NCBI GenBank assembly: GCA_021824575.1
Contig: JAKAKJ010000081.1
Span: 1 to 58,928 of the forward strand
Length of the DNA stretch: 58,928 nucleotides
Reading direction: 5' to 3'
Source: Chloroflexota bacterium
Lineage (GTDB): Bacteria > Chloroflexota > Anaerolineae > Anaerolineales > Villigracilaceae
Shown here: in pieces, positions 3,254-48,127 of the stretch
Position numbering within the stretch: position 1 is the first letter of the stretch
Layout: every line of letters begins with the position of its first letter
The notes under the pieces: model-generated
Databases searched by the model: none
What the model was told of the DNA's origin: nothing
Seen by the model: the letters and a program-made list of their open reading frames with translations, nothing else
Position numbers and translations under genes: made by a program

Positions 3254-4150
3254 CTATGGGGCCAACACAACCGTGGCCTGTGCGCGCTGCTGCGAAACCC
3301 AGGCCCTCAAAGCGCTATCCTGCAATACAAGATAAGCATCGGGCGAAAGAGGGTGTTGAGCATCGCGTTCCAGCACCTTGATAATGATATATCCGGCATC
3401 TGTTTGGATCACGTCGCTGATCTGCCCAACCTGTAAACTGAAAGCCGCTTCTTCGACTTTCGGATCGAGTAAGTAGCCTTTTGGGAACCAGCCCAGATCG
3501 CCATTGGCGTTCGGGTCATATTGTGAGGCCAGCGTGGAAAAATCCGCGCCGCCTTTGAGCTGGTCCAACACCGACTGCGCGTCAGTCGCATTATAGAGCA
3601 AAATCTGCTGAACGTGCACCTGGTCGGCAGTCTTCGGAACCGCGTTTACGATCTTGTCGCGCATCCACGCGGCTTCGGCAGACAGCGTCAATGCGGAGCG
3701 GAAGGACGCGTCGGTGTAACCGTGAGCGGATTCCCATGCCGATAATTTGCCCGCACCGCCGAGCTGGGTTGTCAGCGCGTCGATCCGGGACTGCAAAGCG
3801 GAATCCGTTAAAGTGAATCCTGCAGCCTTTGCGCCTTGCGCGAGCAAAACCTGCGCGATCAAATCTTCGAGCACGGTTTTGTTTGCGTCCTGATCGGTGA
3901 CGGTTTTACCAAGCGCGGTCTGCGACGCTTTATAACGCGCAAGTTCGGATTGAAATTCAGCCACGCTGATCACTTCACCGTTAACGGTCGCGGCAGCTGG
4001 TTCCGCGGTGGCAGTGGGAGGCACGGGCGTTGCCGTCGGCTTGATTGGGGTCGGCGTCGCTTTGGGTCCGGACAAAGAGCCGCAGGCAGCCAATCCAAGC
4101 GCGAGAATCATCGTCAATTGGATCAAAAATACACGGGGGCGAAAAAACAT
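3254..4150 (-). CDS. PpiC-type peptidyl-prolyl isomerase lipoprotein (PrsA/SurA-like foldase)
   Basis: 298 residues from the ATG at 4150. It has a lipoprotein signal peptide ending in LGLAAC (lipid-modified Cys 23), a TPTPIKPTATP linker, a SurA_N-like helical region (AEFQSELARYKASQ), then a parvulin domain: VHVQQILLYN, GADFSTLASQYDPN, GDLGWFPKG, EEAAFSLQVGQISDVIQTDAGYIIIKV. Its expected role is folding of exported proteins at the outer face of the membrane. The open frame extends to a GTG at 4186, but that lies inside the groEL terminator, so the ATG is preferred. First gene of a two-gene unit. Confidence 0.88.
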   Translation of the reverse strand: MFFRPRVFLIQLTMILALGLAACGSLSGPKATPTPIKPTATPVPPTATAEPAAATVNGEVISVAEFQSELARYKASQTALGKTVTDQDANKTVLEDLIAQVLLAQGAKAAGFTLTDSALQSRIDALTTQLGGAGKLSAWESAHGYTDASFRSALTLSAEAAWMRDKIVNAVPKTADQVHVQQILLYNATDAQSVLDQLKGGADFSTLASQYDPNANGDLGWFPKGYLLDPKVEEAAFSLQVGQISDVIQTDAGYIIIKVLERDAQHPLSPDAYLVLQDSALRAWVSQQRAQATVVLAP

Positions 4151-25197: not shown

Positions 25198-26946
25198 TCA
25201 GCGCGACTTGGCGTTATGCAAACGGTCGGCAGCTTCCTCGGTCAACGGGATATAGACGGATATCTTTGTGCCCTTGCCAATCGTGGATTGAATGTTGAGC
25301 AAGCCGTTGACCAGTTCGGTGCGCTCGCGCAGATTGACCATGCCGAGGCTGGAACGTTTATCGTACGCCTTGTTTACCGCATCCACATCGAAGCCAATGC
25401 CATCGTCTTCGACTTCAAGCAAAGCCGCGCCTTGCTGAAACGGTTGTAAGCGAACCCAGATGTTGGCTGCGTTGGCATGTTTGCGCGCATTGTTGATTGC
25501 TTCTTCGATGATATAAAAAATCACACCTTGTTTTCCCATTTCCATCTGGCTGGAGATATTATCGTCAATGTTGACGATCACGTTCTGATTGTACGTCTCA
25601 CGCATCTTATCGGCCATGGATTTCAGCGCCGCGCTCAATCCCTGCGACTCAAGGATGAGCGGTCGCAGCGTGAACAGCATGTGGCGGATTTCCTTCGTTG
25701 TGCGATGCGCCAGTTCTTCGATCTTGGAAAGCTCATCCACTGCGCTCTTTGTGTCTTTTTCCATCAGGCGCCGGGCGAGGTTGATTCGCATCGCCATCGC
25801 CGCCACCGACTGAGTCGGCCCGTCGTGAAGATCGCGCGCCAATTTCTTGCGCGCCTCTTCATGGACTTCAACCATCCTTTCCTTCTCTTCGACTAAATCC
25901 TGATAAAGCCGCGCGTTCTGGATGGCAACAACTGCCTGACGGCTGATGATATCCAGCATATCGCGGCGGTCGGACTCAAAATAATCCGGTTCGGGGTGTG
26001 CGAACAAAATCGCGCCATATACGTTGAATCCGCTTCGAAGCGGGAAACAATAAGCCGACGTGCAATTGCGGAATGCGATCACGCGTCCCAGCTCCGGATC
26101 GTAGCCGATGTTTTTCGAGAAGACCGGCTCGCCTTCGTCAAAGACTTTTTTCAAAATCCCCTCGCTGCCATCGAAGCCGAGACGCATATCCGCGCTGGTA
26201 AAGCGCCGCGCGGAGGCGACGCGCAATTGTCCGCCGCGGAATAACAGCACCGCGCTGACCAGCGGATTGTTCTCGCTGGCGTCCATTGAATCGGGATTGA
26301 GCGCGGCATATCCAACGTCCAGCGCCGAGTCGAGCACGCGCTTGTAGGAAAGAGTCGCCGTCAGCGTGGAAGTCAATTCGTAGATTGCGCGCAGGCGTTC
26401 GCCCTGAACGTGCCGCTTCTTCTCTTCGGCATCCAGCCACATCTGCCGTTTGAGCCGCAAGCGCGACATCAACTGTGTACCCAGAAAACCGAACAAAATA
26501 CCAAGCCCCAGGATTGCCGCCATCCAGATCAAGGCTAGGGAAGATCGCGCAGGCACATGGATTTGCGCCATCACAAAAGCAAGGACGGCAAACAGCCCCG
26601 CGGCAATCAGCGCACCCGAATAATCGAAATAAACCGCACCGGTCAGGATGGGCAATAGTCCCGTCCAGGATGCCGGGCCAGACAAACCGCCCTGCGCCCA
26701 GAAAAAAACTCCGCTCAATAAAATGTCCACAGCCAGGTTGACCTGGCGATGAAAACTTATACGTGTGTTAAGGCTGGCAAGGATGGTCATGCTCATGTTC
26801 CAAAAGATCAGCACGATCAACGGCCAGGCAAGGGTTAAACTCAACGATCCCCCCAGCGAAAGCGATACGACCAGTCCCAGAATCACTGCCCAGCGAAGCG
26901 AAATCGCGAACCAGTCTGCTACGTAAGGAGTTTCAAAAGTCCGCAT
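25198..26946 (-). CDS. Membrane sensor histidine kinase, GAF + HisKA_3 (NarL partner type)
   Basis: 582 residues from the ATG at 26946 (the frame opens at a TTG at 26982). About six membrane segments in residues 1-170, a GAF domain at ~205-350 (YELTSTLTATLSYKRVLDSAL to ISRQAVVAIQNARLY), then a HisKA_3 helix pair with the phosphorylated His in RDLHDGPTQSV, and a HATPase domain (NNARKHANAANI, DDGIGFD, GMVNLRERTEL). Such kinases signal to LuxR/NarL response regulators; none is adjacent, so this is an orphan in the window. Ligand unknown. Confidence 0.9.
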   Translation of the reverse strand: MRTFETPYVADWFAISLRWAVILGLVVSLSLGGSLSLTLAWPLIVLIFWNMSMTILASLNTRISFHRQVNLAVDILLSGVFFWAQGGLSGPASWTGLLPILTGAVYFDYSGALIAAGLFAVLAFVMAQIHVPARSSLALIWMAAILGLGILFGFLGTQLMSRLRLKRQMWLDAEEKKRHVQGERLRAIYELTSTLTATLSYKRVLDSALDVGYAALNPDSMDASENNPLVSAVLLFRGGQLRVASARRFTSADMRLGFDGSEGILKKVFDEGEPVFSKNIGYDPELGRVIAFRNCTSAYCFPLRSGFNVYGAILFAHPEPDYFESDRRDMLDIISRQAVVAIQNARLYQDLVEEKERMVEVHEEARKKLARDLHDGPTQSVAAMAMRINLARRLMEKDTKSAVDELSKIEELAHRTTKEIRHMLFTLRPLILESQGLSAALKSMADKMRETYNQNVIVNIDDNISSQMEMGKQGVIFYIIEEAINNARKHANAANIWVRLQPFQQGAALLEVEDDGIGFDVDAVNKAYDKRSSLGMVNLRERTELVNGLLNIQSTIGKGTKISVYIPLTEEAADRLHNAKSR

Positions 26947-33873: not shown

Positions 33874-33907
33874 GTAGCGGCAGGTTTTAGACCTGCCGCT
33901 ACTTTTT
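33874..33907. terminator. Bidirectional terminator between htrA-like gene and AAA-R3H gene
   Basis: GTAGCGGCAGGT (33874-33885) and its complement (33891-33902), 5-base loop, then TTTTTA. It lies between convergent genes. Confidence 0.85.
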
Positions 33908-35540
33908 ATTCCCTAAATATTCTCACATGCCTTCTCGGTTCTTTGCCATACGAGTGACTCACCAATTCTGCCTGACGGGCCATCTCGTGTTCCAAGCGCC
34001 GCACGAGTGATGGACCCGGCGGCAAATCCACCCAGCGCTCGCCGTTCAAGACTGCGGCAATTGCCTGTTGCGTTTGCTCTTTCACTGCATCAATGTCAGA
34101 TGATGCAAACTGCTCGCCTTTCAAGTTGAACAAATCGCCCAAAAACTGTTCCATCTGTCCAACCGTGCTCGAACGCAAAACATAAATCGGCAAGCCGCGG
34201 TGTTCAGCATCCACGATCGTTTGCTGACGGTCGCGGTAATACGTTCGCAAGGTCACCAGCGCATTCGCCTCATCCGGCTCCTTCACAACAACAACCGGCA
34301 CGCCGAGTCGCTTGGCGGCTTGCATCAGACGATTGCGCGCCACGCCATACGGATAAATCTTCACCGTCTGCATTACGCTGTGCGTCACGCTGCGAACCGG
34401 CTCGAAGTGCGGAGGCGCGGACGCGGCGGACGACTCATCGAAAGACGCGGCCGGCTGACGTCCCATCGAAGATCCGGGTGCCCTTCCAGAGCGCCGAGGC
34501 GTTTTCGATTCTTTCGCGTCCATCCTCGACTGTGGAACAGTTGCAGTTTTCTCGATCTGAATCTTGCCATCGGCATCCCGCGTGCGAACTTCAGGCAGGA
34601 TTGGATAGCCGCGCAGGAGCGCATCAACAGATTCCATGATATCGAGGTGAACCGCGAAGCGATCACGATTTTGAATCTCGATCAGCACATCGAACGTGGG
34701 CGGAGCGCGTCGCTCGAGGACCGTTTTCTGCGTGCCGCGTCGACGCGCTTCCTCGTCTGACAATGTGACCGCTTCGATTCCGCCAACGAGATCGCTCAGC
34801 GTTGGGTTGAGCAAAAGATTATCGAGGGTTTGTCCATGTGCCGTGCCAATGAGCTGCACGCCGCGTTCCGCGATGGTACGCGCTGCGGCCGCTTCGAGTT
34901 CACGCCCGATCTCGTCAATCACGATGACTTCGGGATTGTGATTCTCAACGGCTTCGATCATCACTTCGTGCTGAAGCATCGGCTCGCGCACTTGCATACG
35001 GCGCGCCTTGCCAACTGCAGGATGGGGCACATCACCATCGCCGCCGATTTCGTTGGAGGTATCCACGATGACGACGCGCTTGGCTTCTGCCAGAATGCGC
35101 GCGGCCTCGCGCAAAAGAGTCGTTTTACCAACGCCGGGACGCCCAAGGATCAGCACTGACTTGCCTGATTCGATGATGTCCTGGATGATGTCCACTGTGC
35201 CATACACGGCGCGTCCCACGCGCAAAGTCAGACCGACGATGTGCGTACGCCGGTTGCGGATGGCTGAGATGCGATGCAGCGTACGTTCGATTCCCGCACG
35301 GTTGTCAGCGTCGAATTCGCCCGTGCGTTCATCCACGTAATCAATTTCGGGGCGCGTCACTTCCGATTCGCGCAGGACAATTTCACGATCCACAAAGCGC
35401 GCGGTCGGGACGCGGCCTAAATCCAAAATGATCTCCAGCAGGTTCTCGCTATCGTCCGCTTTTTCCACCGCGCGGCGGATATCCGCGGGCAGAACATCGA
35501 GAAGCGCTTCAAGGTCATCAGTTATTTTAAGTTGAGTCAT
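33906..35540 (-). CDS. AAA ATPase with C-terminal R3H nucleic-acid-binding domain
   Basis: 544 residues from the ATG at 35540 (TTG at 35561 rejected). Residues ~1-110 are helical; P-loop LILGRPGVGKTTLLREAARIL; Walker B EVIVIDEIGRELEAAAARTIAERG; then LIGTAHGQTLDNLLLNPTLSDLVGG, as in SpoIIIAA/ycf45-like ATPases. A low-complexity basic linker (~340-395, rich in Arg, Ser, Pro, Ala) precedes a domain with VRSVTHSVMQTVKIYPYGVARNRLMQA and a terminal R3H motif (RRLEH). It probably binds single-stranded nucleic acid; role unknown. Confidence 0.87.
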   Translation of the reverse strand: MTQLKITDDLEALLDVLPADIRRAVEKADDSENLLEIILDLGRVPTARFVDREIVLRESEVTRPEIDYVDERTGEFDADNRAGIERTLHRISAIRNRRTHIVGLTLRVGRAVYGTVDIIQDIIESGKSVLILGRPGVGKTTLLREAARILAEAKRVVIVDTSNEIGGDGDVPHPAVGKARRMQVREPMLQHEVMIEAVENHNPEVIVIDEIGRELEAAAARTIAERGVQLIGTAHGQTLDNLLLNPTLSDLVGGIEAVTLSDEEARRRGTQKTVLERRAPPTFDVLIEIQNRDRFAVHLDIMESVDALLRGYPILPEVRTRDADGKIQIEKTATVPQSRMDAKESKTPRRSGRAPGSSMGRQPAASFDESSAASAPPHFEPVRSVTHSVMQTVKIYPYGVARNRLMQAAKRLGVPVVVVKEPDEANALVTLRTYYRDRQQTIVDAEHRGLPIYVLRSSTVGQMEQFLGDLFNLKGEQFASSDIDAVKEQTQQAIAAVLNGERWVDLPPGPSLVRRLEHEMARQAELVSHSYGKEPRRHVRIFRE

Positions 35541-35704
35541 ATAGAAACAGCCTGTTAGCAAAAAGTACGGTGTGATTTCAACGAGGAGACACCAAATCCC
35601 CTGAGATACTTACGCCGTGTGAAATTCACTGAAACAACGGCTTACAAAACCAAGGCAAAATCTTGTCCATGTCGGCGTTACCTGCCAGTCAGTGAGATAT
35701 TTAT

Positions 35705-39971: not shown

Positions 39972-39985
39972 GTTTCACGTGAAAC
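39972..39985. other. parS-like centromere site (ParB/Spo0J binding)
   Basis: GTTTCACGTGAAAC, a perfect 14-bp palindrome identical to the inner 14 bases of the widespread chromosomal parS consensus (TGTTTCACGTGAAACA); only the two outermost bases differ. It lies about 7 kb from the probable origin, the usual neighbourhood for parS. It overlaps the annotated GTG start of the next gene. parA and parB are not in the window. Confidence 0.85.
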
Positions 39986-43043: not shown

Positions 43044-44177
43044 TTAACCCAAGTGCATCGGCATAATTACATGCAGAAATTGATCATCGCCAACCGGCCG
43101 CACCACCCCCGGCGCATTCGGTGCGGATGTTTCCAAGGCTACATTCGGAGTTTTGATTACTTCGAGTGCCTCGCGCAAAAACTTGACATTGAACGCAATT
43201 AAAACGCCGCTTCCATCTACCGTTGCTTCGACAATCGTTTCATTCTTGCCTGTTTCCTCGGAAGTTGCAGAAATCTCGACCTCGCTCGGTTGCAAATCGC
43301 CGCTCGCCGATTTGATATTCAGCCGCGCCACATTCGATCCTTCGCGCGCAAAAATCTCAGCCTGCTTGCAAGCTTTGATCAACGCCGCCGTGGACACGAG
43401 CGTTCGTGATGTATATTTACGCGGAATGATTTGCTGATAATCCGGGAAAGTCCCGTCAATCAATTGCGAAACAACTTCGACATCTTTGACGCGGAACAAT
43501 ACCTGTCCGCGCCCTTTTGGAACCACCATGTAAATCGGCTCCTCGCCATCGCTTGCAACACGCGCCAATTCGACCAAAGCGCGCGCCGGGACAATCGCCG
43601 TCAGCGGTGCGGGCGCAGGCGAAGACAAGGCCGCTTTGCGAACCGAGAGTCGAAATCCGTCCGCGGCGGCCATCGTTAATTTATCTTTCTCAACTTGAAC
43701 CAGCACGCCCATCAAAACGGGGCGCGCTTCATCTGTCGAGGCTGCGAAGGCCACCTGCTGAATCATCTCGCGGAAGTCAGCCACGTTTAGTTGCACCCCG
43801 CCGTCCAAGTCCGGGACGGGAAGCGGAGGAAATTCCTGGGCGTCAATGCACTTGATATCGTTGGTGGAGGTCCCACCGCGTACGTTCAGCGTTTGCGTCT
43901 TGGCATCAAGTGAGAGCAGTACCTGATCGCTCGGCAGCGTATTGACCAAATCAGAAAACGTTCGTGCCGGAACGGTCGTTGAGCCTTCCTGTTCGATACG
44001 GGCTGGAACCCAGCATGTGATTCCCAATTCAAGATTGGTGGCAGAGAGCCGCAAACGACCTTCGTCCGATGCGACCAGCACATTCGCAAGCACTGGCAGC
44101 GTACTGCGCGGCGACACCGCACGTGACACAATGCCAAGACCGCGAGCAAGATTCTCTTGTAATACGGTCACTTTCAT
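43044..44177 (-). CDS. dnaN: DNA polymerase III beta subunit (sliding clamp)
   Basis: 377 residues, full length. It forms the ring that tethers polymerase III to DNA. Features: MKVTVLQENLARGLGIVSRAVSPRSTLPVLANVLV, TVPARTFSDLVNTLPSDQVLLSLDAKTQTLNV, FAASTDEARPVLMGVLVQVEKDKLTMAAADGFRLSVRKA, IDGTFPDYQQIIPRKYTS, and the C-terminal FLHVIMPMHLG. GAGG precedes the ATG. dnaA, commonly adjacent, is absent; the probable origin begins about 2.4 kb upstream, beyond two membrane-protein genes. Confidence 0.97.
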   Translation of the reverse strand: MKVTVLQENLARGLGIVSRAVSPRSTLPVLANVLVASDEGRLRLSATNLELGITCWVPARIEQEGSTTVPARTFSDLVNTLPSDQVLLSLDAKTQTLNVRGGTSTNDIKCIDAQEFPPLPVPDLDGGVQLNVADFREMIQQVAFAASTDEARPVLMGVLVQVEKDKLTMAAADGFRLSVRKAALSSPAPAPLTAIVPARALVELARVASDGEEPIYMVVPKGRGQVLFRVKDVEVVSQLIDGTFPDYQQIIPRKYTSRTLVSTAALIKACKQAEIFAREGSNVARLNIKSASGDLQPSEVEISATSEETGKNETIVEATVDGSGVLIAFNVKFLREALEVIKTPNVALETSAPNAPGVVRPVGDDQFLHVIMPMHLG

Positions 44178-44217: not shown

Positions 44218-46116
44218 TTAACGTACAAAGGCAGATACAACCAACATCACTAAAGCAAACAGAATTTGCAGACCAAACAACGCGGCCGCGACATAGCCAA
44301 CGATAACCCAACCAGAATTGCCTCCAGTTTGTTGGCGGACGGGTTGGCCCTCAGCTAATTGACGAACGACTTGCGCCGCCTGCTGGATTGCCTGCTTGTT
44401 GACTCCGCCTGCCCAGATGATTCCCTGCGACTCATCCGGGACGATGATGCGGCTTCCACTAAAAGAGCGAATCCACTCTGGGACACCCTTGGCCACCAAA
44501 CTTCCGCTCAGCACAACTGCATCAAATTGACCATCCGGTTTCTCACCAACAACGATCGCCGACACATTTGGCGCAGATTTCACCATCGCGGCTTTGACTG
44601 ATTCGCCAAAACCATCCTCCGAATCCGCAATCAAGACTTTGAAATCGGTTTGTTTCTTTGCCAATGCGCTAGCCGTGAATAATCCATCGCGGCGCAAAAC
44701 CAACAAATGATAGATAAACAAAATGATAAATAAAACGAGCAACTGCAGATCGTTCAAAACTGTGGACAGAAATGAACTATCAATCTGGCCGCCCAATAAA
44801 GCATTCAAGAATTGAAAGACCAGCGCCACAGCCGAAATCATCCCGCCGATCACGCCGGCAAACAATGCCAAATACAAATAAGCTTTTCTGACGATTGACC
44901 GCCGCGCGTGTTCTGCCATATCGCCTTCCGCAAGCGCTTCACGTTGCATCGGGCGCCACGTCAGCAGCCAAAGCGGAAGCCAGGCAGCGATCAGCGAAAT
45001 AGCGGTTGCAAGATTCGAGCGCAATGTATCAGTCAAAAGCAACGAGCCGCCGGTTGATAAATCAATCAGGAACTTGATCAATGCGGCAACGCCGATGAAT
45101 GCTCCGCCCAATCCAAGGGCGGACAAAATATAGAAGTACACGCGCTTCATAGCGGCTTGTCGAACCGGATCGCCAATCGAATCAATGTGACGATTGAGCC
45201 AGTGTCCGTAATAAGCCCACACCACGCCAAGCGGCAAGCCAATCGAAATGGGTCCGCCAATTTGATGGATGAAGTCCGCAGTCGAAATATCTGCGCCAAG
45301 AATTTTCGTGATGACGATATTTACAACCATCGCCGCGGTCGTCAGCACGGTGACGACTCCGCTTAGGGCGAGGATGTAAAGAAAGCCAAGGCGTAGATTC
45401 GACTCTTTTTCCGCCGCGTCGGCCAGCGAGTCCTGGATGATGCGCCACGAATAAAACCACACCGGCGTCCCGATGACCAACAAGGCAATCCCATTGATCA
45501 AAGTCTCGGACGTAAGCTCACCCAGCACGCTTCCCGGAATAAAGAAAATATAGTTCAAAGCTTGTTGCGCACCAAAGATCATCATCAACAAACTGTAGAG
45601 AACCCACACATAACGATACAGTCGACGGACGTCTGCAAAGTTTTCTTTGGATGGGAGCGTCTGCCATTCGCCCCGCAAAATATTCCAGAAGTAAATCGCA
45701 ATGACGCCGTTCATCAGGATTGCGATCAGGTTATCGGGCCAGGTCTGCGAACCACCGACAAAAGCGCGCTCCACAGATAGATGAACCAGCTGCAGAAAAA
45801 TACGATTGAGCAATGCCAGCAAATTTTGAATCAGCGGGATAAGTGTGCCGATCAAAACCCCATAAAGAAAGATGGCGCGCAAGCTGGCGGTTTTCTCTTC
45901 ATCATCACGACCCGAGGTGCGTTGCGCCCATAACCAATGGATTAGGAAAATGGGTACGCCGACTACAACCAGCGCAAGCGCCTGGGCCAACGCCTCCGCA
46001 CTGCCGCCGACAATTTGATCCACAATCGAACGAAGCAGGTTGATCAATCCCCAAAGGACAACCTCGAGGCTGATGAGCGCGACAGCGTAGAAATAAAGTC
46101 TGCGGACAGTTTTCAT
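44218..46116 (-). CDS. Large membrane protein with three DUF5671-like repeats
   Basis: 632 residues. Three units of ~130 residues, each with about four membrane segments, begin VRRLYFYAVALISLEVVLWG, VRRLYRYVWVLYSLLMMIFG and MKRVYFYILSALGLGGAFIG; each carries a copy of a Pro-aromatic-Trp motif (GVPIFLIHWLWAQR, GTPVWFYSWRIIQD, WLPLWLLTWRPMQRE). A soluble ~120-residue domain follows (KVLIADSEDGFGESVKAAMV, VLSGSLVAKGVPEWIRSF, RIIVPDES) and a last membrane helix. Function unknown. AGGAG supports the start; the preceding gene ends 9 bases away. Confidence 0.82.
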   Translation of the reverse strand: MKTVRRLYFYAVALISLEVVLWGLINLLRSIVDQIVGGSAEALAQALALVVVGVPIFLIHWLWAQRTSGRDDEEKTASLRAIFLYGVLIGTLIPLIQNLLALLNRIFLQLVHLSVERAFVGGSQTWPDNLIAILMNGVIAIYFWNILRGEWQTLPSKENFADVRRLYRYVWVLYSLLMMIFGAQQALNYIFFIPGSVLGELTSETLINGIALLVIGTPVWFYSWRIIQDSLADAAEKESNLRLGFLYILALSGVVTVLTTAAMVVNIVITKILGADISTADFIHQIGGPISIGLPLGVVWAYYGHWLNRHIDSIGDPVRQAAMKRVYFYILSALGLGGAFIGVAALIKFLIDLSTGGSLLLTDTLRSNLATAISLIAAWLPLWLLTWRPMQREALAEGDMAEHARRSIVRKAYLYLALFAGVIGGMISAVALVFQFLNALLGGQIDSSFLSTVLNDLQLLVLFIILFIYHLLVLRRDGLFTASALAKKQTDFKVLIADSEDGFGESVKAAMVKSAPNVSAIVVGEKPDGQFDAVVLSGSLVAKGVPEWIRSFSGSRIIVPDESQGIIWAGGVNKQAIQQAAQVVRQLAEGQPVRQQTGGNSGWVIVGYVAAALFGLQILFALVMLVVSAFVR

Positions 46117-46125
46117 GGCATTCTC

Positions 46126-46602
46126 CTATGGCTTTGGGGGTATTTGATACCAGCTGTAATCCCAAAGATTATATGTTGGCATGGATGAGATTTTCCATAC
46201 GCCGTTCTGCTTCACCAACTTCGCTGAACCAACATCGTTAAACCCGCTGGAGAACGGATCATTGGGTGTGTACGTCATGCTGATTTCAACGGCAGCATCC
46301 TCGCCAGTGATATCAACCTTCCCAATCTGGACTCCGTTATTGGCGGGGTCCAGTTTTCCAACTGCAAATGCCTGCCGGAATTGGTTTAGCGTTGGCTTGT
46401 TGTCGAGGTCAGCCAAATATCCGTAGGCTTTCGGATAATCCTTATTGAGCAAAGCCAGCACATAGTTATGCACAACGCCATCGGGAGTATCCTCAGAAAC
46501 ATAGGCTTGTGTATTCTGCCTTGAAAAGAAGAAAGCCAATGCAATCACAATCAATACTGCAATCCCGATCAAAATGCCGGTCAAAAACCGATCCTGTTTC
46601 AT
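46126..46602 (-). CDS. Membrane-anchored NTF2-like (DUF4878-type) protein
   Basis: 158 residues. One N-terminal membrane segment (~8-27, TGILIGIAVLIVIALAFFFS), then a small alpha+beta domain: DGVVHNYVLALLNKDYPKAYGYLAD, QFRQAFAV, VDITGEDAAVEISMTYTPND, AKLVKQNGVWKISSM. The pattern of a helix pair and a curved sheet ending in W-K-I resembles NTF2-like lipoproteins. GGGAGC precedes the ATG. First gene left of the probable origin; likely co-transcribed with the DUF5671-like gene. Confidence 0.77.
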   Translation of the reverse strand: MKQDRFLTGILIGIAVLIVIALAFFFSRQNTQAYVSEDTPDGVVHNYVLALLNKDYPKAYGYLADLDNKPTLNQFRQAFAVGKLDPANNGVQIGKVDITGEDAAVEISMTYTPNDPFSSGFNDVGSAKLVKQNGVWKISSMPTYNLWDYSWYQIPPKP

Positions 46603-46710
46603 GGTCAGCTCCCTGTTTTGATTTCATTGTATAAGGTTTGAATATGGAAAGCAAGAAAGGCGTCTTTCATGTTTGGGCGCTTGTTGGATGTTTCCCAGTA
46701 GGATGTAATG

Positions 46711-46755
46711 ACAGTTTATTTATTTATATATGGAATTCGTAGTCTTAGTAGGGAC
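46711..46755 (-). other. DNA unwinding element with DnaA-trio-like tract
   Basis: Reading the minus strand from the tandem boxes: a GTCC linker (46755-46752), then CTA CTA AGA CTA CGA (46751-46737), then ATTCC and an AT-only stretch (46730-46715, TATATAAATAAATAAA). In Bacillus subtilis the DnaA-trio has the same order: boxes, short GC linker, CTA-rich triplets, AT-rich DUE. The tract is seen; its role in strand opening is inferred. Confidence 0.7.
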
Positions 46756-46773
46756 TGTTGATAATGTGGATAA
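46756..46773 (-). other. Tandem DnaA boxes next to the unwinding element
   Basis: Two 9-mers abut: TTATCCACA (perfect) and TTATCAACA (one mismatch), both read on the minus strand and pointing toward the trio-like tract and AT-rich stretch. Confidence 0.85.
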
Positions 46774-47002
46774 TGAAATGTGGCCGTATCGGTTGGATGT
46801 CTTCGACCCCCTCACTGCCACATCTTTGGGAATCTAGTTATTTTATGGTTTTGAAACTATGTGCACAATATTGGAATAGTTTCTCGCCGAAGCAGGCGGT
46901 TTTTTGATAGCTCTATATATTGGATAATGGGCGTGATTGGAGCCCATATCTAGGGGTCATGTTTTCGGGCTTTTTTGCTAATTTCTCAACGAGTTGTGTC
47001 TA

Positions 47003-47052
47003 TTGTCCACAGGCGATGCCCTTTATCCACAGTTTTACCCCTGTTATCCACA
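47003..47052 (+). other. Second DnaA-box cluster
   Basis: TTGTCCACA (47003), TTATCCACA (47023) and TTATCCACA (47044), all on the plus strand, with starts 20 and 21 bases apart, i.e. about two helical turns. This spacing puts the boxes on one face of the helix. A further perfect box on the minus strand lies inside the next gene at 47293-47301. Confidence 0.85.
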
Positions 47053-47098
47053 AAAAGGACTTTCTAATTTGGAGTTGTCTGACCCAAATATGGACGGC

Positions 47099-48127
47099 TC
47101 ACAGGCTGGTGGATGTTTCCAATCCATTTTCAGCGGCGATTTCGTCTAGCCGGACTTCGATTTCATCCAGATAGCTATCCAAGCCGGAAACGCGCCCTTC
47201 GAACGATGCGCCAAGCAGACTCAATTTTTGGCACGCTTCATTCCACGACTGGGACTGGCTCTCGTTTAAGACGGCAACTGTCAGCGTCCACGTGTGGATA
47301 AGTGGCCAGAGCGCAGTCAGCGGAGTATCGCCAGCGAGCAAGGCCTCCATCGCTTTTTCGTAATAGTTCAGCCGTGCGGCGTGGATGCGTTGATCCACTT
47401 TCGCATTTTCAGCGGCGGCGAGGAACGAAGCTTTCCATTGGGGCATCCATCCGGTGAGTGTATTGGCATCCACTTGACTCGCACCGATCAAATTGAAAAG
47501 TGTCGCTGTGAAATTTGGACGTTCGGCAGCCTGTGCCCGCGCGGGAAAATCGAGCAGGAAACGTCTTTCCGTCAGCGGGCCGCCGCTCAATTCGGCCACC
47601 GTATCCGCCGCGTAGTTTATGGCTCGAAGAAATTGCCTGACTTGCATCGGCCCGGTTTTTTCTGGTTCGATGTCTGACAGATCCATCCAGCCTTTGCGCG
47701 CCTCAGCCAACAGTTTGCGGCAGCGACTCAACATCAGCGACGGCGCCTGGAATTCAAACCCGGCGCGCAAACCAGCCTGTACGAACTCAAAAAATTTTTC
47801 GCTTTGGTACAAAAGCATCGGGTCGTACATTTCGTAGCCGAGCATCGGATCCGCCCGTAGTTCCCGCGGCGACCTGAAATCCGATCTGGCCCGATGTGCG
47901 ATATCGAGATGAAAATCCGGCGTGAGCTTGACGATCTCACGCTTGACAGCTGGCTTTGTGTTATGAACCAGTACGAGGTCGATATCCGCTGTGCCGCCGA
48001 GCATCGGATCCACATCTGAGACAAGCGAGCCCGTCAGATACGCGGCGATCACGTCGCGGTCGTTGAAAGCCCGTTCCTGGGCTGTCTCTTTGGCAATGCG
48101 GATGAGTGACTCTCGTGTGACGCGCAT
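47099..48127 (-). CDS. Nucleotidyltransferase-domain protein
   Basis: 342 residues. The N-terminal ~90 residues carry a polymerase-beta-type motif: AYLTGSLVSD followed by GGTADIDLVLVH (GS-x-D-x-D pattern) and a third acidic residue in FHLDIAHR. The helical remainder (LMLSRCRKLLAEARKGW, QVRQFLRAINYAADTVAELS) resembles the helical half of aminoglycoside/lincosamide-type nucleotidyltransferases, but the substrate is unknown. It follows the deoxynucleoside kinase gene by 9 bases. Its 3' end borders the origin and contains a perfect DnaA box at 47293-47301. Confidence 0.82.
   Translation of the reverse strand: MRVTRESLIRIAKETAQERAFNDRDVIAAYLTGSLVSDVDPMLGGTADIDLVLVHNTKPAVKREIVKLTPDFHLDIAHRARSDFRSPRELRADPMLGYEMYDPMLLYQSEKFFEFVQAGLRAGFEFQAPSLMLSRCRKLLAEARKGWMDLSDIEPEKTGPMQVRQFLRAINYAADTVAELSGGPLTERRFLLDFPARAQAAERPNFTATLFNLIGASQVDANTLTGWMPQWKASFLAAAENAKVDQRIHAARLNYYEKAMEALLAGDTPLTALWPLIHTWTLTVAVLNESQSQSWNEACQKLSLLGASFEGRVSGLDSYLDEIEVRLDEIAAENGLETSTSL

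Follow-up and report, generated by a model that had tools for sequence, protein, structure and literature searches.

The question raised by this locus is whether a 496-base gap without a gene (46603–47098) is the place where replication of the chromosome starts, and what besides DnaA might act there. The window, i.e., the whole stretch of DNA that was analysed (58,928 nucleotides), is the entire contig C78 of an assembly of 3,636,040 bases in 98 contigs, which is 98.2% complete. A preliminary description had called the gap the chromosome origin on account of its DnaA boxes. We find that the gap is very probably the chromosomal oriC: the call is supported by a local skew minimum, a unique parS, a conserved box array, the lack of a box cluster beside dnaA and the T-A skew of a relative, G010. 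That earlier picture was nevertheless incomplete, because the DnaA-trios and a pair of NrdR-like boxes were missed. We propose, at a probability of roughly three in four, a wider reading, in which the gap is an oriC whose palindrome pair, phased to the array, would be bound by NrdR in response to dATP, with NrdR predicted to act also at the promoters of dnaA and of the nrdR-reductase operon.

The perfect TTATCCACA boxes described for the gap were recovered at 46765(−), 47023(+) and 47044(+), together with the fourth at 47293(−) within the next ORF. Three one-mismatch boxes had also been claimed for 46603–47098, of which two were found, 46756(−) (TTATCAACA) and 47003(+) (TTGTCCACA); the next such boxes, at 46016 and 46466, fall within ORFs. 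The left pair faces left and the starts of the right trio are spaced 20 and 21 bp, as claimed. Dinucleotide shuffles of the gap held a mean of 0.007 perfect boxes, reaching three in 0/1000 and two one-mismatch boxes in 9/1000, which places the cluster (three perfect boxes in 496 bp) well above chance, as expected of an oriC. The window as a whole has 21 boxes with at most one mismatch versus 9.36 expected, a count equalled in 0/100 shuffles. Across the 3.64-Mb assembly there are 48 perfect boxes, as compared with 7 for the pattern read backwards, and they are clustered on C78 only; off this contig, the nearest two in the genome are 7.4 kb apart.

Table 1. Features of the origin region and its surroundings (positions in the window).
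Feature	Position	Strand	Remarks
parS core GTTTCACGTGAAAC	39972–39985		Sole match in the genome at no more than one mismatch; 7 kb from the gap
dnaN, DNA polymerase III beta clamp	43044–44177	−	TIGR00663, 287.5 bits vs cut-off 137.65; Pfam; 3 kb from the gap
ORF left of the gap	46126–46602	−	Gap lies upstream of this ORF
AT-rich stretch, likely DNA-unwinding element (putative role)	46710–46733		Column frequencies of 71 modules show AT-rich DNA on the left side of the trios
Five DnaA-trios, TCG TAG TCT TAG TAG	46737–46751	+	Triplets read 3'→5' starting at the boxes
Two tandem DnaA boxes	46756–46773	−	46756 with one mismatch, 46765 perfect; putative DnaA loading onto the trios
Second NrdR-like pair, tentative	46783–46830		46783–46798 and 46815–46830, 32 bp; weak score, 9.4–10.3; beside the unwinding module
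NrdR-like box pair I	46910–46956		46910–46925 and 46941–46956; 16-bp palindromes, 31 bp start to start; between the clusters
Three-DnaA-box array	47003–47052	+	47003 with one mismatch, 47023 and 47044 perfect; spacings 20/21 bp
Weak NrdR-like box right of the array	47081–47096		Score 6.5; relatives have stronger boxes near +78 and +88
ORF right of the gap	47099–48127	−	Contains the perfect DnaA box at 47293
Outlying perfect DnaA box in the next ORF	47293–47301	−	Also present in two congeneric species (L003, L004)

The right cluster was searched for as TTNTCCACA-N11-TTATCCACA-N12-TTATCCACA, with up to three mismatches, in 200 genomes of an order that we took as Anaerolineales from the names of the dnaN relatives; these are mostly called Anaerolineales, Anaerolineae or Chloroflexi MAGs, the nearest (L003) having 98% dnaN identity. 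This array pattern is present in 164/200 genomes, mostly as a single copy, and the reversed pattern gave 0 matches across all 200. The comparisons below use 83 origin modules, which are part of the arrays among the matches listed in that search. They are not independent, because G024 and G033 each give two modules and some of the species are close. Two loci were left out before counting, namely L171, which comes from the same genome as L107, and L109, which has no array at two mismatches or fewer.

The left cluster is a predicted full basal unwinding module, with two tandem DnaA boxes, a GC spacer, five DnaA-trios and AT-rich DNA. In the basal unwinding system as described for other bacteria, co-oriented DnaA boxes stand beside DnaA-trios with the consensus 3'-GAT-5' (PMC10721633, PMC6669920), and the same succession, two co-oriented boxes and then trios, can be read here. 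Five triplets of the consensus TMG TAG TMG TAG TAG, and a GC-rich spacer, precede the tandem boxes in 71 of the 83 modules (37 genera). The three-base T-(A/C)-G periodicity extends across the five triplets and is lost further left, where the DNA is AT-rich; only the outer trios count as independent evidence, because the search was anchored on the trio adjoining the GC spacer. The module lies 223 to 270 bp from the array in 67/71 cases (about 250 bp in the window), and these distances cluster by about one helical turn (genus-level R 0.57 at 10.5 bp for 37 genera, the fit improving slightly at 10.75 and 11). The layout is like that of Bacillus subtilis incC, in which two co-oriented boxes by the trios are accompanied by a distal box group that is reported to be required if the origin is to be fully active (PMC6669920, PMC10721633) and to which delivery of DnaA via a loop is ascribed (PMC6669920). 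Unlike in B. subtilis, dnaA does not adjoin the origin here, three boxes at a fixed 20/21-bp spacing form the distal group, and NrdR-like pairs are placed between the two DnaA groups.

These pairs came to light when alignment of the origins revealed a palindrome, CCCCATATATGGGG, between the two DnaA clusters. A site within one mismatch of CCATATATGG is found in 55/83 regions, as compared with an average of 1.4 and at most 5 over 50 shuffles. The palindrome was initially treated as a CArG-like element, a view replaced by the NrdR-like reading. At up to one mismatch to CCCATATATGGG, the window's own genome has three sites, two of which flank dnaA (about 340 bp upstream and about 165 bp downstream), while the third, inside a gene on contig C2, is regarded as a chance match. 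The copy in the window itself differs at two positions and hence falls outside this list. G010 has 13 sites. Of its three perfect copies, one falls within the array gap and another some 340 bp ahead of dnaA; nrdR is closely preceded by a copy with one mismatch, and eight of the sites are elsewhere.

Known NrdR sites are described as paired 16-bp palindromes about 31–32 bp apart (PMC12051234, PMC2892513), and the boxes of reductase promoters stand about three turns from each other (PMC12051234, PMC2892513, PMC9110341). The window pair shares this geometry, with 16-bp palindromes 31 bp apart, and fits the matrix of the clade's own nrdR promoters, which makes it a candidate NrdR site. Training of this palindromic pair matrix was limited to 31 nrdR/ribonucleotide-reductase promoters of the order, 30 of them belonging to the 35 nrdR matches and one to G077; the other five matches are without a locus. 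Three of four seeds, namely the oriC-derived consensus, a general NrdR consensus and the plain core ATATAT, converged on CCCCCATATATGGGGG; the fourth, a blank one, led to another motif, which matched 11/83 origins. With the spacing left free over 20–45, 30 or 31 was chosen by 30 of the 31 nrdR promoters.

When applied from −240 to +160 of the array, the matrix found pairs scoring at least 15 in 66/83 modules (49/54 in the window's own family, f1, and 17/29 in other families), and in 0/83 reversed sequences and 0/159 flank segments. The threshold of 15 was set after the scores had been seen and is the one used for the zero-match controls; at 12, 1/83 reversed sequences passes. The spacing scan of the origins peaks at 30 (48) and 31 (35), followed by 32 (17) and by 28, 33 and 44 (11 each). 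An earlier scan, with a sharp matrix and a high per-box floor, had given pairs in 24/83 origins and none of at least 16 in 1.77 Mb that included the G010 and G077 origins; the matrix was afterwards softened by a pseudocount and the floor and thresholds were lowered, the controls being run with the softened matrix. Further array loci, 15 in number (f4, f6, f8, f10, f11, f14), hold a pair of at least 15 somewhere in their 1.7–4.3 kb in eight cases. Counting against the NrdR reading, 17/83 modules have no pair at this threshold (5/54 in f1, 12/29 elsewhere), among them all three of f2, the single one of f15 and the three of f13 g47.

Specificity was assessed with a leave-out matrix, from whose training the window's genus, G010 and G077 had been removed, on a background of 1.75 Mb sampled from the two relatives G010 and G077. 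The top two pairs are the G010 and G077 origins (28.7 and 22.1); the third and fifth matches (20.1 and 17.1, both in G077) lie away from origin and dnaA and count against the reading. Within the window, the pair at 46910/46941 is the best, with a score of 20.9 and, by the leave-out matrix, 21.2, the best outside the gap being 10.9 and 11.3, respectively, and 46941 is the best single box. As for the two weaker sites of Table 1, several relatives have their best pair near −197, −208 or −218 of the array, and a box scoring 11 or more occurs at +77 to +100 in 36 modules.

The same type of box recurs upstream of dnaA. Within the 450 bp searched, one box of at least 13.7 is found in 18/18 dnaA loci (all f1), at −306 to −353 of the start codon, and 17/18 loci have a site within one mismatch of CCATATATGG. 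The 1.75-Mb background holds 15 boxes of this strength; the two origins account for four and dnaA for one. A pair of at least 14, however, is present at only 7/18 dnaA promoters, most of which show a single good box; this counts against the NrdR reading and makes the dnaA site a weaker case for a standard NrdR operator. E. coli NrdR is reported to need two boxes for tight binding (PMC12051234).

Other features of the dnaA loci were observed in passing. Nearly all of the 18 loci, with L272 as the clear exception, share a conserved block that reads roughly TGGCTGAAACG..TGTTCT and starts some 25 bp past the NrdR-like box, near −300 of dnaA (near 3285–3305 of L255, the locus of the window's own genome). 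A second palindrome of the same type stands about 165 bp past the dnaA stop (L255, 5082–5093) and also occurs in the sister species L260. Rfam gave no match on the window, L255 or L277.

The protein itself is encoded in the genome. The nrdR gene is present at C34:20047–20493 (TIGR00244, 171.8 bits vs cut-off 124.65), directly upstream of the reductase gene, whose domain match begins at C34:20923, and nrdR was found in 35/37 genomes. The usual NrdR box is of the ACAC..GTGT type. Unlike such boxes, those of this clade have the consensus CCCCCATATATGGGGG and are predicted in the origin and the dnaA promoter, and the NrdRs differ as well: Asp15 is kept in the clade, and Arg is absent from position 17 in 31/31 proteins, which have S, T, A, H, L or N there. 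The PDB chain 9gex_A, which we take to be E. coli NrdR, has Arg at the place aligned with residue 17. In Streptomyces coelicolor NrdR, D15 and R17 appear to give sequence specificity, and binding is reported to kink the DNA close to 90 degrees per box (PMC9110341). The non-Arg residue 17 would fit a shifted box, short of proof.

These data bear on whether another regulator, which would also control dnaA and the nrdR-reductase operon, binds the palindrome pairs of the oriC. We regard this as unlikely, given that the 30–31 spacing in the nrdR promoters is the known NrdR geometry (PMC12051234, PMC2892513), that nrdR is so widely present, and that the change at residue 17 is consistent with a changed box; it draws what strength it has from the single good box of most dnaA promoters, from the fact that NrdR binding is read from sequence, and from G012, which carries the boxes and in which nrdR was not found (a 92% complete genome), a case that counts against the NrdR reading. 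In G044, too, nrdR was not found, and neither its box cluster nor its dnaA has a pair or strong box. This again counts against the NrdR reading, in that its genus mate G057 has a pair of 21.3 in the dnaA locus; at the two box clusters of G057 there is none.

The NrdR reading is further tied to the origin by helical phase. A proximal NrdR-like box is present in 66/83 modules, and 65 of the 66 start at −40 to −42, −50 to −52, −61 to −63, −70/−71 or −81 of the array, the remaining one being at −105. Taking one value per genus (30 genera), R for the phase of the proximal box relative to the array is 0.90 at 10.5 bp; the Rayleigh p-values ignore shared ancestry. Genera differ in the turn that the box occupies, and the face of the helix is the same. 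This fixed phase tells against the boxes of the oriC being ordinary operators of a flanking gene with no role in initiation. That possibility, less probable still than a different regulator, arises because the gap is upstream of the left ORF, whose start is about 308–354 bp from the pair, and it is also at odds with the fact that the array's distance from dnaN and dnaA differs between lineages.

As to whether the gap is the origin of the whole chromosome, the cumulative curves of the window reach their lowest points at its left edge for G-C (46613) and for keto (46594), and at 46097 for T-A. The parS core was identified by what we take to be the parS consensus. Exact cores share the contig of the array in G001, G002, G003, G010 and G077, at 6–7 kb from it in the same genus and about 30–40 kb in G010 and G077; when the core was read backwards, with one mismatch allowed, it matched 0 to 12 times per genome and strand. 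In the neighbourhood of the origin, a deoxynucleoside kinase gene (PF01712, 48137–49030) is transcribed towards it, and further off, at 33906–35561, a protein has a partial match to SpoIIIAA, a sporulation ATPase, at 74.7 bits, well below the cut-off of 281.3 (TIGR02858).

The preliminary description had placed dnaA outside the window, and the gene was located on another contig, at C21:3585–4916; with dnaN on C78, the origin is indeed not in a classic dnaA-dnaN region. Nor is there a better box cluster next to dnaA, the finding named earlier as one that would speak for an origin elsewhere: no DnaA box with one mismatch or fewer occurs from −1500 to +2500 of the gene (L255), which also disposes of our own candidate of an origin beside it. 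A second candidate, an origin always within a few kb of dnaN, was ruled out by 80 named loci of dnaN relatives, since the cluster is in the flanks covered, many of them short, of L003 and L004 (own genus) and L037 only.

The position of the array relative to these genes varies. It adjoins dnaA in nine genomes, i.e., f2 (G037, G051), f3 (G038), f4 (G039, G052), f10 (G045), f11 (G046, G059) and f15 (G050); G058 (f10) has two arrays, neither shown beside dnaA. Within f1, array and dnaN share a contig in 13 relatives, at a distance of about 3 to 44 kb for the nearer array; in others they are on different contigs. The array is not beside dnaA in the compared f1 genomes. In G010, a single contig of 4,403,799 bases, the array (505,572) and dnaA (3,067,519) are 2.56 Mb apart, or 1.84 Mb the other way if circular. 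The initiator gene and the origin are therefore mostly parted in f1. Three perfect DnaA boxes adjoin dnaA in G023, an f1 genome without an array match.

Skew of the two relatives agrees in part. The T-A skew of G010 (40 samples of 20 kb) has its best origin boundary at the 495-kb sample (R2 0.57, 0/200 permutations), a switch that coincides with the array within the sampling step of 55–110 kb. Its G-C skew, counting against the call, prefers 1.1 Mb in a two-replichore fit (R2 0.34, 2/200 permutations), not the array near 0.5 Mb; the keto fit is best at 0.99 Mb (R2 0.56), and 440 kb ranks third (0.54). For G077, of which 45 samples were taken, the cumulative G-C curve bottoms out at the 3.92-Mb sample and dips locally at 3,905,073, close by the array (3,905,265); the T-A skew turns near 3.5 Mb, about 0.4 Mb from the array, which again counts against. 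The support from skew is thus good locally and mixed genome-wide. DnaA-box clusters are known at datA- and DARS-like loci too, and although the G-C skew of G010 does not indicate the array, it is highly improbable that the site is such a DnaA-titrating or -reactivating locus with the origin elsewhere, given the unwinding module with its trios, the skew minimum of the window at the gap, the nearby parS and the only clustered perfect boxes of a 98.2% complete genome.

For the oriC with a bound NrdR pair, we propose the following mechanism. DnaA would bind the tandem boxes, load leftwards onto the five trios and melt the AT-rich DNA, and the array, about 250 bp off on a roughly fixed helical face, would supply further DnaA by a loop. 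At high dATP, a response carried over from other NrdRs, an NrdR tetramer loaded with dATP/ATP would bind the pair, whose 31 bp amount to three turns in phase with the array, and might kink the loop between array and unwinding module and so alter the delivery of DnaA. NrdR would bind the promoters of dnaA and of the nrdR-reductase operon as well; initiation, DnaA supply and deoxynucleotide synthesis would therefore share one nucleotide signal. From the observed sequence, spacing, conservation and phasing of the sites we infer NrdR binding, the looping and the sign of its effect. On balance we lean slightly towards the stronger claim that NrdR is a dedicated origin-binding protein in Anaerolineales, held on a fixed face between unwinding module and array, which together with the dnaA site would gate initiation by the deoxynucleotide pool.

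The E. coli oriC has an IHF site between unwinding element and DnaA boxes, and the site of a DNA-bending protein is predicted at the like place here; IHF senses no nucleotide and is unrelated to NrdR. NrdR is a repressor. In Caulobacter, raised dNTP levels are reported to delay initiation by a CtrA-independent route (PMC12186491). On these two grounds, a brake on initiation is somewhat more likely than an IHF-like aid. The predicted binding also has a counterpart in Caulobacter, where the regulator CtrA times initiation by binding oriC (PMC12186491), although CtrA is a response regulator, unlike the dATP/ATP sensor NrdR.

If true, predicted sites of a dATP/ATP sensor in the origin, the dnaA promoter and the reductase operon would make a direct link between the supply of DNA precursors and the start of replication, and the role of NrdR would reach past reductase control. 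It is described that nrdR genes can adjoin replication genes such as dnaA, and a feedback among nucleotide pools, NrdR and replication has been speculated upon in print (PMC4898720). In a literature search of titles and the beginnings of abstracts, no report of NrdR at an origin was found; the oriC call is ordinary, and the link between NrdR and the origin is, as far as searched, unreported.

Several relatives depart from the single-array arrangement. The eight searched genomes of f9 g33 (G044, G057, G151, G160, G168, G187, G193, G199) are all without the three-box array. In G063, four perfect DnaA boxes are packed into 193 bp (C1:359851–360043), 155 kb from that genome's array. G024:C90 has two arrays 49 kb apart, one of which is without the trio signature. 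Finally, G033:C21 (L242/L243) carries arrays at 26086(+) and 86232(−), 60 kb apart on one contig, each belonging to a complete module with tandem boxes and trio signature, NrdR-like pair and array, and is possibly a case of a duplicated origin.
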